From: a virus
Strand: one strand, 5' to 3'
Virus record (IMG/VR): IMGVR_UViG_3300020473_000061
Coordinates: 1-38,803 of that record
Length of the DNA stretch: 38,803 nucleotides
The notes below the pieces were generated by a model. It was given only the letters and a program-made list of their open reading frames with translations, made no database searches and was not told the origin of the DNA. The translations under genes and the position numbers were made by a program. Shown here piece after piece: positions 1,628 through 35,033 of the stretch (positions are counted from its first letter, which is position 1; each line of letters opens with the position of its first letter).

Positions 1628-4414
1628 ATGGCAACCCCGATAAGGATCAAACGATCTGCGGTACCTGGAAAAAGACCGCAGGTTACAGACCTACAAGTAG
1701 GAGAATTAGCTCTTAATACTCACGATGCAGAATTAGTAACTCTAAGGCAGAGAGCATTTACACATCGGTTTGTCTCTTCAAATAATAATTCGGTTAATGT
1801 TCAGAGTGGTGCAGAGAATGGAAATCAAAAGACTCCAAATGATGCAACATACATTGCTTCAACAGGTGTTCTTACATTAAAATTTGCTTCTGCTCATGGA
1901 TTAGCAGATGGTGACACAATTACTCTTGATAATGATTCCTTAAAGTTTACTTGTGATGCAGATAATTATGCAACTGAACATACATATCCTCGTTCAACAG
2001 ACCCAATTGCAGGCGTAACTACTGCTGTTGGTGGTGTAACCACAACTAGTTTTACTATTAATGTTGGAAAGGGATATTCTACAGAAGTTGTTAGAACTGG
2101 TGCAGGTGCAACAGTAACTAACGTAATATATGTAACTAAAGATGGAAACGACAACAACACAGGACTCAAACTCGGAGACGCAAAAGGAACAATTCAAGGA
2201 GCAGTCGGAATCTCAACAGACGGATCTGTCATTAGAGTTAGTGCTGGATCTTATGTAGAAGAGAATCCAATTGTTTTACCAAAGCAGGTTAGTTTAGTTG
2301 GAGATAGTTTAAGAGAAGTATCGATTATACCTAAGAATGTAGATAAGGATATATTTCATGTTGCTCCTGGTGTGATGCTACAGGAGTTAACTTTTTCTGG
2401 AACAGTGGATCAGGGAGTTGCTGCAGTCGCATTTAATCCAGATAAAATTTATTATTATGATCAATCACCATATATTAGATTCTGTACCAATAAAGTTGGT
2501 AACAGTATTGGTTTAAAGATTGATGGAACCAAATCACTTGGTCCATTTAAGAGTATGGTTACTGACTCTTATACCCAATACAATGCAAATGGCATAGGAG
2601 TTTCAATTAGTAATGAGGGATATGCTCAGATAGTTTCAATGTTCACTATGAATCTTGATGTTGGAATTACTTGTATTAGTGGTGGACAATGTGATGTAAC
2701 AAACTCCAACTCTTCATTTGGAAATTATGGAATGATTTCTGATGGTATTGGACCTAGAAAATATACAGGAACAATAAATGCTGAACAAATTCCTAATCAA
2801 GATACCTTTGTAGTAAACTTAGGAATCTCCACTCATTCTGTAGATGATGCAATATATGATGGTAACTCTGGTATTTTAACAGTAACCACTTATACTAATC
2901 ATGGACTTGAAGTTGGTGTGGGTGTTACATTATCCAAGTTAGGATTTACTTGTGACTATGGAGATTATACTCATGCATTTGTAAGTGGAACTTCTGGTGC
3001 TGTAACTGTTAATACTGGTGTTGGTTATACTGCAAAGACTGGAACAACATATACTCCAACTACTGGAGAGTTGGTTATAGATTTTGGTGAAGCACATGGT
3101 CTTAGTGCTGCAGGTATTTCTACAACACAAAGTGCTTCTTATACACCAACAACAGGTTTATTAACAATAAACACTCAAGACAATCATGGAATGTCTAATG
3201 GAGATTATATTAAAATTGCTGACGAATCATTAATATTTACTTGTTCAAGAGATGGTCAAGCTACAAACCATAAGTATCCTAGAATTTCTGATCCTGTTTC
3301 CAATAAATGGTTACCAGTTACTGTAGTTGATAGTGATACTTTTACTGTTAATGTAGGAATATCTGAGGATTATAATCATCTATATTCAAATAGTGTTCCT
3401 GGTAATATTAAAAGAGCAGTAAATACTATTGGTATTGCCACGGATGGTGTAACATTTACTTGTTCTAAAGATAATAATGCTTCTAATCATTCTTATCCAA
3501 GAACAACTGATCCAGCACACAATGCCACATTGGGTATTGAAGCAGTGACTACTAATTCTGTTACTGTTAATGTTGGTGTATCAACTCATGACATATTCCC
3601 AAGTGGTATAAATGGGTATATTTTTGATGTTGTTTCTGTTCCTACAACAAAATCATTTGTTGTATATGTTGGACCTAATAGACATCCTCATACTTATGTT
3701 TCTGGTGGTAATGTAAAACCTGATATTATCAGACCTTTTGATGGTCAGGTAGTCTTTTTTGATACTTTATATCAAGAAGTTTTTAAAATAAAAGTTGCTA
3801 ATGGGGGTTCTGGATACACTAGTGTTCCTACAGTAACTATTGATGCACCACCAACTGACTGGGGTGTTCAGGCAACAGCTGTTGCTGAACTTAAAAATGG
3901 TAAAGTTGATAGTATTGAGTTAGTTTCAAGTGGAAGAGGATATACATCTATTCCAAATGTTACAATAACTGGTGGTGGTGGATCTGCTGCTGCAGCAGCA
4001 TTAGTAATGGTGCCAAAATATTATTCTATAACAAAATCAACACCAATATCTGCTGGTATATCAACCATTACTGTTAATGATAATGTTCCATATACAGTTG
4101 GTGTTGGGGTTACAGTTCCATTCTATAAACAGAGTAGAATTTTAGCATCCAGTCATTCATTCGAATACATTGGAACTGGTGTTGATATAGTTAATTCATT
4201 ACCATCTAGAGGTGCTGTTCCAATTCAAGATAATGAAATTGATGATCGGAATGGTGGACTAACTATCTTTACAAGTACTGACCAAGCAGGTCAATTTAGG
4301 ATTGGTGATGGTGTCATCATTGATCAACAGGCAGGAACAATTACTGGAACATTCTATTCCAAGAGTTTGTTCTCGACAATGACACCGTTCATTCTAGCAC
4401 TAGGAGGAGATTAA
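1628..4414 (+). CDS. Virion structural / tail-fibre protein with tropism-determinant-like N-terminus (928 aa)
   Basis: This is a large secondary-structure-rich virion protein. The N-terminus (TPIRIKRSAVPGKRP, then a VGELALNT stretch) matches the start seen in many cyanophage fibres and in the Mtd N-terminal domain. Residues about 165-260 begin a parallel beta-helix (GNDNNTGLKLGDAKGTIQGA, then SLVGDSLREVSIIPKN). Four copies of a module with a TG-L-HGL-G core, several running into FTC and a YPR-DP stretch, occur near residues 76, 410, 490 and 520-650. Around 720-795 are two GxGYTSxPxVTI elements, another phage-fibre repeat. No signal peptide or transmembrane segment is present. It starts a probable late operon behind AATAAATA and ends with AGGAGGA, which is the ribosome binding site of the next gene. 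Cyanophage annotations sometimes call such proteins VrlC-like; I would not insist on that. Receptor binding is inferred, not shown. Confidence 0.8.
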   Translation: MATPIRIKRSAVPGKRPQVTDLQVGELALNTHDAELVTLRQRAFTHRFVSSNNNSVNVQSGAENGNQKTPNDATYIASTGVLTLKFASAHGLADGDTITLDNDSLKFTCDADNYATEHTYPRSTDPIAGVTTAVGGVTTTSFTINVGKGYSTEVVRTGAGATVTNVIYVTKDGNDNNTGLKLGDAKGTIQGAVGISTDGSVIRVSAGSYVEENPIVLPKQVSLVGDSLREVSIIPKNVDKDIFHVAPGVMLQELTFSGTVDQGVAAVAFNPDKIYYYDQSPYIRFCTNKVGNSIGLKIDGTKSLGPFKSMVTDSYTQYNANGIGVSISNEGYAQIVSMFTMNLDVGITCISGGQCDVTNSNSSFGNYGMISDGIGPRKYTGTINAEQIPNQDTFVVNLGISTHSVDDAIYDGNSGILTVTTYTNHGLEVGVGVTLSKLGFTCDYGDYTHAFVSGTSGAVTVNTGVGYTAKTGTTYTPTTGELVIDFGEAHGLSAAGISTTQSASYTPTTGLLTINTQDNHGMSNGDYIKIADESLIFTCSRDGQATNHKYPRISDPVSNKWLPVTVVDSDTFTVNVGISEDYNHLYSNSVPGNIKRAVNTIGIATDGVTFTCSKDNNASNHSYPRTTDPAHNATLGIEAVTTNSVTVNVGVSTHDIFPSGINGYIFDVVSVPTTKSFVVYVGPNRHPHTYVSGGNVKPDIIRPFDGQVVFFDTLYQEVFKIKVANGGSGYTSVPTVTIDAPPTDWGVQATAVAELKNGKVDSIELVSSGRGYTSIPNVTITGGGGSAAAAALVMVPKYYSITKSTPISAGISTITVNDNVPYTVGVGVTVPFYKQSRILASSHSFEYIGTGVDIVNSLPSRGAVPIQDNEIDDRNGGLTIFTSTDQAGQFRIGDGVIIDQQAGTITGTFYSKSLFSTMTPFILALGGD

Positions 4415-34469: not shown

Positions 34470-34505
34470 CAAAATATCGGGGAAAAAAATCCCGGTATTT
34501 TTTTG
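34470..34505 (+). terminator. Intrinsic terminator before the riboswitch region
   Basis: A stem of about 9 bp, AATATCGGG/CCCGGTATT (one G-U pair), with an A-rich loop is followed by an uninterrupted T run. It ends the transcript of the three preceding genes and isolates the next promoter. Confidence 0.85.
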
Positions 34506-34541
34506 GTCTGTAGGGTCGATGTAACAAATTTACATACTTGG

Positions 34542-34570
34542 TTGACTATATAGTATATCTGTGTTAGTAT
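34542..34570 (+). promoter_or_regulatory. Sigma-70-like promoter for the riboswitch unit
   Basis: TTGACT (34542-34547), exactly 17 bases, then TAGTAT (34565-34570); both are five-of-six matches. Predicted initiation around 34577 is 3 bases before the first conserved base of the RNA element, so the aptamer would be the very 5' end of the transcript. This looks like an early promoter read by host RNA polymerase. Confidence 0.7.
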
Positions 34571-34579
34571 TAACACAAT

Positions 34580-34623
34580 CGTTCAACCTCTTAGGAGGTC
34601 GCAAGTAAGCCGACTCGGAACGG
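34580..34623 (+). ncRNA. Glutamine-riboswitch-like aptamer 1 (glnA / Downstream-peptide type)
   Basis: P1 is CGTTC (34580-34584) with GAACG (34618-34622). P2 is ACCTC/GAGGT (34586-34590 and 34595-34599) with a TTAG loop, followed by the conserved-type stretch CGCAAGTAAGCC and GGAACGG. This order and wording match the glutamine-binding RNAs of cyanobacteria and their phages, which are known to precede short open frames. P3 looks very short here. The element begins at the expected transcript start and precedes a 52-codon frame. Glutamine as ligand is by family analogy. Confidence 0.7.
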
Positions 34624-34631
34624 AATCGTTC
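34618..34631 (+). promoter_or_regulatory. Possible anti-aptamer hairpin GAACG-GAAT-CGTTC
   Basis: The 3' strand of aptamer 1 P1 (34618-34622) is also perfectly complementary to CGTTC at 34627-34631, four bases away. The two pairings exclude each other, giving a ready two-state switch six bases upstream of the ATG at 34638. Confidence 0.45.
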
Positions 34632-34803
34632 ATCCTTATGGAATTACTTCTCGTTAGTCTTTTACCATGTGATTATGCTACTGGTCTTGTCGAACAGATA
34701 TACCGACAGCATACTGAAACACCTAAATCTGAATTAATTCAGATTGTGGAACAGAGTACTGAGAAGGGATGCTTTGAGGACGCAAAAGCCGACTGAAGGA
34801 ACG
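34627..34803 (+). ncRNA. Possible split glutamine-riboswitch-like aptamer 2 enclosing a gene
   Basis: The 5' half CGTTCATCCT (34627-34636) fits the family's 5' consensus. The matching 3' half, AGGACGCAAAAGCCGACTGA followed by AGGAACGG, is at 34777-34804. The two can pair as P1 (CGTTC/GAACG 34799-34803) and P2 (TCCT/AGGA 34777-34780). The whole 52-codon frame lies between them, as an enlarged P2 loop; its stop TGA is inside the 3' half. Alternatively the 3' half is a relic. Confidence 0.4.
34638..34796 (+). CDS. Riboswitch-associated small protein (52 aa)
   Basis: The frame begins MELLLVSLLPCDYATGLVEQ and ends KGCFEDAKAD. It is mostly helical, with a hydrophobic start and an acidic end, and contains two cysteines. 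No Shine-Dalgarno stands at normal distance; the only AGGAGG (34593-34598) is about 40 bases upstream, within P2 of aptamer 1, so translation is probably tuned by RNA folding. Short frames after this riboswitch class are a known theme, and the ELLxxSLxxCxxAxxL start resembles small proteins I recall from other cyanophages. By analogy with glutamine-controlled small proteins of cyanobacteria, such as the glutamine synthetase inactivating factors, a role in nitrogen control is possible but unproven. Confidence 0.7.
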   Translation: MELLLVSLLPCDYATGLVEQIYRQHTETPKSELIQIVEQSTEKGCFEDAKAD

Positions 34804-34837
34804 GGGCTAAAAATCCCTACTACTTTGGAGAAAGCCA

Positions 34838-34981
34838 ATGGCACAAGTTACTTACCGTGGTGTCGAGTATGACACTGAAGAGTACAGAAAAATGCTCATC
34901 AATGAGCATAATCAAACTCGTAATCACGATTTAATGTATCGTGGTATCAAGGTTAGAAGCAAGGCAATACCTTGCAGTTAA
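34838..34981 (+). CDS. DUF4278-like small protein (47 aa)
   Basis: MAQVTYRGVEYDTEEYRK, then a YRG repeat (DLMYRGIKVRSK) near the end: this two-YRG layout resembles DUF4278, a short family typical of cyanobacteria and their phages with unknown function. A GGAG ribosome binding site (34827-34830) sits 7 bases upstream of the ATG. It lies directly after the 3' half of aptamer 2 and a small GGG/CCC hairpin (34804-34817), so it may be under the same glutamine-type control. The strong terminator at 35003 ends the unit. Confidence 0.75.
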   Translation: MAQVTYRGVEYDTEEYRKMLINEHNQTRNHDLMYRGIKVRSKAIPCS

Positions 34982-35002
34982 GTTCTAGAACTTAATTATA
35001 AT

Positions 35003-35033
35003 AAGAGAGTCTATTGACAGACTCTCTTTTTTT
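35003..35033 (+). terminator. Intrinsic terminator whose loop contains a promoter -35 box
   Basis: A perfect 10-bp stem AAGAGAGTCT/AGACTCTCTT (35003-35012 and 35019-35028) with an ATTGAC loop, then T's to 35033. It ends the riboswitch unit. The loop and first stem base supply the TTGACA of the next promoter. Confidence 0.92.

Follow-up and report, generated by a model that had tools for sequence, protein, structure and literature searches.

The window studied here, which corresponds to positions 1–38,803 of the IMG/VR virus record IMGVR_UViG_3300020473_000061, is a fragment of a T4-like cyanophage with Marine virus AG-345-L05 as closest relative (34% covered, 84% identical). Positions 34471–35028 constitute a self-contained unit, in which a terminator-like hairpin and a promoter-like site precede tandem aptamers, the nested gene 1, the DUF4278 gene 2 and a terminator (Table 1). 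The gene thyX adjoins this unit and a glutaredoxin gene is located close by. The −10 region of the promoter-like site lies inside a palindrome, TGTGTTA...TAACACA (34559–34577), which is kept directly 5' of aptamer 1 in several related phages and could possibly be an operator or a 5' hairpin. Gene 2, described as DUF4278-like in a first-pass annotation of the window, could be confirmed as such with 25.4 bits at a cut-off of 25.3. We additionally observed a conserved hairpin early in the DUF4278 coding sequence (34838–34900 in the window, found in many loci), formed by GTGTC...GACAC or GAGTC...GACTC and displaying both-sided covariation (UA 20 / AU 14 at one pair).

Table 1. Annotated elements of the tandem aptamer unit.
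Feature	Position	Strand	Basis
Intrinsic-terminator-like hairpin 5' of the unit	34471–34501	+	sequence feature
Sigma-70-like promoter TTGACT-17-TAGTAT	34542–34570	+	consensus match only
Aptamer 1, compact glutamine-I (glnA) riboswitch aptamer	34578–34626	+	RF01739, 37.5 bits
Aptamer 2, 5' half: P1 strand CGTTC (34627–34631), P2 strand TCCTTA (34633–34638)	34627–34638	+	sequence, covariation
Nested gene 1, 52 codons, no Shine-Dalgarno, PHROG 504, forming the P2 loop of aptamer 2	34638–34796	+	
Aptamer 2, 3' half: P2 strand TGAGGA (34775–34780), core CGCAAAAGCCGACTGAA, P1 strand GAACG (34799–34803)	34775–34804	+	
Gene 2, DUF4278 protein, 47 codons, Shine-Dalgarno GGAG	34838–34981	+	
Intrinsic terminator closing the transcription unit	35003–35028	+	

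The first-pass annotation, made from sequence alone, had proposed tandem glutamine aptamers, the second of which encloses a whole 52-codon gene whose stop codon falls inside the 3' half. Both claims held, supported by the family match of aptamer 1 and by covariation across loci for the enclosure, and by the reading frame with its TGA at 34794–34796 for the gene. The end of the second 5' half, placed at 34636, had to be amended, since P2 extends to 34638 by pairing of TCCTTA with TGAGGA, so that the A of the inner ATG belongs to the helix. In the Rfam covariance search aptamer 1 passes the gathering score of RF01739 (cut-off 35), while its score for glutamine-II (RF01704) remains at 30.4 bits, under the cut-off of 33. 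Both halves of aptamer 2, CGTTCATCC (34627–34635) and CGCAAAAGCCGACTGAAGGAACG (34781–34803), are single copies within the window, with 0 matches of the latter expected by chance, and the core CGCAAAAGCCGACTGAA doubles as code for the C-terminus DAKAD and the stop of gene 1. The split aptamer 2 gave no RF01739 match as one contiguous RNA in a cmscan of the window, and Rfam finds no glutamine aptamer either in Syn9 and P-HM1, whose loci have a gene in each of the two aptamers. For the window this miss is expected, because RF01739 does not span inserts such as the 148 nt present here, and we ascribe it to the model no less than to the RNA. Natural compact copies of aptamer 2 reach or exceed the gathering score in three out of four loci tested (37.8 bits for L005, 35.4 for L003 and 35.3 for L024), with the copy of L036 below it at 31.6 bits. 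By homology to the contacts in the solved structures (PMC6698751), the glutamine-contacting nucleotides C34627, G34628, G34782, C34802 and G34803 are all present in aptamer 2. Comparative sequence analysis thus shows aptamer 2 to be an RNA of glutamine-I type in which the P2 hairpin loop is exchanged for a complete gene; there are no binding data. From the same homology it is inferred that the glutamine site would be assembled from nucleotides flanking the gene on both sides.

P2 covaries across the nested gene in many phages, co-variation of the two halves being the check that the first-pass annotation had proposed. In a set of 42 type 2 and 9 type 1 genes with less than 70% protein identity, contiguous P2 pairing amounted to 6.1 bp for type 2 and 5.8 bp for type 1, compared to 5.0 and 3.8 bp if 3' halves were permuted between loci. 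In 39 of the 42 type 2 genes the first base of the ATG is paired (23.5 expected), a value reached by none of 5000 permutations, while the entire ATG is buried in only 11 of these genes (6.9 expected). At L218 a TTG start codon still pairs (TCCTTTG with CAAAGGA). Pair counting over 37 distinct gene-collapsed aptamers found 93.4% of cells paired, as high in none of 500 shuffles and compared to 40–63% in slid registers; their covariation score of 0.208 (0.115 for shuffles) was likewise matched by 0/500, and both-sided changes occur at four of the six P2 pairs. P1 is invariant, so covariation neither supports nor opposes it. Unprompted, RNAalifold recovered P1 in each of the six gene families and P2 in four; for the window family, it placed a short local hairpin, UCC-UUAU-GGA, ahead of P2. 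At minimum energy the window RNA folds into a long extension of P2 that holds the whole gene (z −2.6) and from which, in the absence of ligand, P1 of aptamer 2 is missing, as would be usual for a ligand-stabilised helix.

Nesting of genes in glutamine aptamers is widespread in cyanophages, where aptamer 1, aptamer 2 or both may carry one. Compact tandem aptamers are found in P-TIM68 and AG-345-P14, a gene within aptamer 2 in P-SSM2, S-SSM7 and P-SSM7, and genes in both aptamers in AG-345-L05, Syn9, S-TIM5, S-CAM1, S-IOM18, P-HM1, Sf-CH11 and Sf-FS3. A first collection, in which the named loci and the window were added to the viral contigs retrieved by their 3' half, contains at least 122 gene-bearing aptamers (32 of type 1, 90 of type 2); by locus, the gene resides in aptamer 2 only in 65, in aptamer 1 only in 10, in both in 22 and in neither in 28. 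All 122 ATGs of this collection are situated at offset 10–12 from the first base of CGTTCA (counted from 0), and over all loci the start codon lies 10–14 nt from the first base of the aptamer. Stops of the first collection end at −2, +9, +13 or +16 relative to CGCA. Aptamer 2 of S-CAM1 (L141) is exceptional, its nested reading frame ending slightly 5' of the P2 3' strand and outside the core. At L105 (minus strand, 2474–3278) two tandem-aptamer units are adjacent; both aptamers of the first unit are compact, and aptamer 2 of the second holds a gene.

A second scan was keyed on the junction between the 3' end of aptamer 1 and the 5' half of aptamer 2 and was therefore blind to the second 3' half. 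With all fetched loci pooled, a matching 3' half was present in 192/192 scorable junctions, around a gene in 117 and as a short hairpin in 75, leaving none unpaired; seven further junctions are truncated by contig ends and could not be scored. A search for 3' halves lacking their 5' half, a finding that would have refuted the first-pass reading, turned up such cases solely at contig ends. It should be noted that neither scan was exhaustive and that both relied on exact patterns, so that all counts are lower bounds and divergent members are under-sampled. Gene 1 of the window used as tblastn query gave no match in the named phages, which we attribute to its short, diverged sequence, with relatives occupying the same place there. 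Among host genomes, the strict 3'-half pattern was absent from all 201 searched, a pattern too strict to carry much weight, and an Rfam search, itself blind to gene-sized inserts, found only compact aptamers of about 50–100 nt in 20 of 61 host relatives. Four contigs matched in a scan of genome contigs, two of them labelled Prochlorococcus, one of which (189106 bases) apparently is also part of the viral collection. No free-standing homologue of an inner protein was found among the eight isolate loci opened from tblastn matches, all being in riboswitch context; only part of these matches was opened.

The inner genes are under purifying selection, with pooled pN/pS of 0.24 (12 pairs) and 0.37 (28 pairs) after exclusion of the overlapping ends. 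Against synonymous codon shuffles, which preserve protein and codon usage, the closing probability of P2 was 0.73 in natural genes and 0.37 in shuffled ones, with natural values being higher in 48 of 51 cases (p about 2e-9) and those of the window gene at 0.92 and 0.17, respectively. An excess of start-to-end pairing is displayed by 43 of 51 inner genes and is absent from three control sets of the same contigs, i.e. mid-gene segments, gene starts and DUF4278 genes. Higher overall mRNA stability was rejected as evidence, since DUF4278 genes likewise beat their synonymous shuffles (50/50), leaving start–end closure as the only property specific to the inner genes. Codon-level closure and coding selection together show that the same nucleotides are under selection for the protein they encode and for the aptamer scaffold they form. 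Furthermore, a Shine-Dalgarno-like tetramer is within reach of only about 8% of inner starts, compared to 100% of DUF4278 starts and 31% of large reading frames.

The nested proteins comprise 49–69 residues and belong to PHROG 504 (aptamer 2), 6471 (aptamer 1) and 13397, without a Pfam family. The two main families feature a hydrophobic N-terminus and two invariant cysteines; structure models predict two-helix hairpins with moderate confidence, in which a disulphide could link both helices, and a fold search with the predicted structures gave no match below E 0.001. Any role of these proteins can only be inferred. Genes in aptamer 1 end with GRK (GGA CGC AAG TAA) and those in aptamer 2 with DAKAD and variants, and where a protein of aptamer 1 type resides in aptamer 2 (L086, L130), it bears the tail of that position, DAKAD or DAKVD. 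The C-terminus of the nested protein is consequently dictated by the aptamer sequence. On the DUF4278 gene tree, P2 content has switched at least 37 times for aptamer 2 and 18 times for aptamer 1. This tree is short and weak, rendering near-identical pairs the stronger evidence: the DUF4278 neighbours of L012/L019, L021/L034 and L024/L046 are 97–99% identical, yet differ in their P2 contents, pointing to recent exchange of loop genes.

How could a sensor operate with a gene in its stem? Going by the general size of ribosome footprints, a 30S subunit on the inner ATG would span the 5' half in its entirety, and the 3' half would be spanned by a ribosome on the stop codon. Glutamine binding and translation should therefore exclude each other. 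For the glutamine-II relative, the RNAs studied by crystallography and calorimetry carried a tetraloop hairpin in place of the equivalent stem-loop (PMC6698751), and by analogy the apical loop of P2 would be dispensable for ligand binding. In the mechanism we envisage, glutamine would join both halves and trap the inner start codon at or in P2, with no Shine-Dalgarno sequence to assist, thereby switching inner translation off, while the downstream DUF4278 gene would be on, as in known glutamine riboswitches. At low glutamine or upon early ribosome loading, the initiating ribosome would cover the 5' half and the terminating ribosome the 3' half, so that the aptamer could not form and the inner protein would be made. 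A single aptamer would thus drive the nested gene one way and the downstream gene the other.

The glutamine riboswitches known to precede DUF4278 genes are ON switches (PMC6316151), an association into which the downstream context found here fits, and in combination with mutual exclusion this favours opposite control. Upstream of gene 2, RNAalifold revealed no conserved alternative pairing that could serve as expression platform, and the ON assignment therefore rests on the relatives. The first-pass suggestion that translation interferes with aptamer folding is strengthened by a start in or beside P2, a stop in the core, the lack of a Shine-Dalgarno sequence and the codon-level closure of P2, remaining an inference nonetheless; a deciding role of gene 1 translation in the control of gene 2 likewise stays inferred, without expression data. 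We lean, by a modest margin, towards mutual exclusion between an aptamer folded around glutamine and ribosomes translating the nested gene, with opposite control of both genes, where glutamine binding and direction of control are inferred and bench data are lacking. Against this mechanism it counts that no gene-bearing aptamer is backed by data on binding, probing or expression, that a conserved expression platform is lacking, that RNAalifold favours the local hairpin in the window family, that P1 is missing from the ligand-free fold and that the ATG is fully buried in a minority of genes only. A bolder reading, which to our judgement might as well prove wrong as right, is the inference that glutamine closes the aptamer on both start and stop codon of the nested gene, shutting it and opening the downstream gene, that ribosomes conversely dismantle the sensor, and that codon choice tunes this balance.

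The most serious alternative, which remains possible, regards the gene as a passenger that occupies a tolerated P2 loop to save space and is translated at any glutamine level, with the codon bias merely keeping the aptamer foldable for gene 2. The replaceable apical loop of this stem in relatives (PMC6698751) is in line with this, as are the switches between hairpin and gene on the DUF4278 tree, which occur as though it made little difference what fills P2; the genomes of T4-like phages are, moreover, compact. However, a passenger could lie deeper in the loop with a Shine-Dalgarno sequence of its own, whereas the start codon is never further than 14 nt from the first base of the aptamer, its A is paired in nearly all type 2 genes analysed, the stop is nearly always at or in the core, and the Shine-Dalgarno sequence is mostly missing even though the downstream gene always has one. 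Less likely, the halves could act as exchange sites, their homology allowing small cargo genes to be swapped by recombination, while a gene-bearing aptamer 2 no longer senses glutamine. Near-identical DUF4278 neighbours with different P2 contents and proteins of aptamer 1 type carrying the tail of aptamer 2 would be accounted for; covariation of P2 and its codon-level closure would, however, decay if folding were unimportant.

We consider it very unlikely that gene 1 is a leader peptide, the reading ribosomes being the sensor which sets expression of gene 2 and the product being unimportant. The small reading frame located immediately 5' of gene 2, which stops within a regulatory RNA, speaks for such a system, but the products have 49–69 residues with conserved sequence, invariant cysteines and purifying selection, and a conserved series of regulatory codons was not observed. 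Chance likeness of two unrelated stretches around an ordinary reading frame, for which only the lacking Rfam match over the split RNA could be brought forward, is all but excluded, as it is refuted by the comparative evidence, i.e. 0 expected matches, the complete set of scorable junctions and covariation.

Tandem copies of glnA RNAs, as well as Downstream-peptide RNAs followed by short genes, were described by Weinberg 2010 (PMC2864571). With glutamine-I (glnA, RF01739) the RNAs discussed here share P1, P2, core motifs, tandem arrangement and the downstream DUF4278 gene, aptamer 1 being a member by score; described members, however, feature a short P2 hairpin, whereas P2 here encloses a full gene, which overlaps the core at its 3' end. 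Glutamine-II (Downstream-peptide RNA, RF01704) has a near-identical glutamine site within a CGUUCA...GGAACG frame and controls short proteins in picocyanobacteria, but its peptide gene is located downstream of the aptamer instead of within it, and a pseudoknot replaces P1. Group I and II introns with homing or maturase reading frames also accommodate a protein gene in a loop at the periphery of an RNA fold; these are self-splicing mobile elements, in contrast to a small metabolite sensor with a core overlapping the reading frame. In leader-peptide regulators such as mgtL and trpL, a small reading frame and RNA folding affect each other, while in the present case the frame is nested in a ligand-binding aptamer and encodes a conserved protein. 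Marine phage papers within the literature searched mention glutamine riboswitches without nested genes, and no description of a nested gene was found in the accessible literature; most subscription papers and supplements were outside this search, so that an earlier mention cannot be excluded. The sensor class is therefore known, while nesting of a whole gene inside the sensor appears to be new, and the blindness of Rfam to gene-bearing aptamers is a possible reason for it having been overlooked.

Riboswitches are taught as untranslated leaders, whereas here sensor and gene share nucleotides. This arrangement occurs in many abundant phages of the ocean, including the long-studied isolates Syn9 and P-SSM2, and offers a natural test of the competition between ribosome and metabolite for one RNA, with built-in controls in the form of the same aptamer carrying a hairpin in place of the gene. 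For the phage protein families PHROG 504, 6471 and 13397, which are without known function, it supplies a context and a likely regulator.
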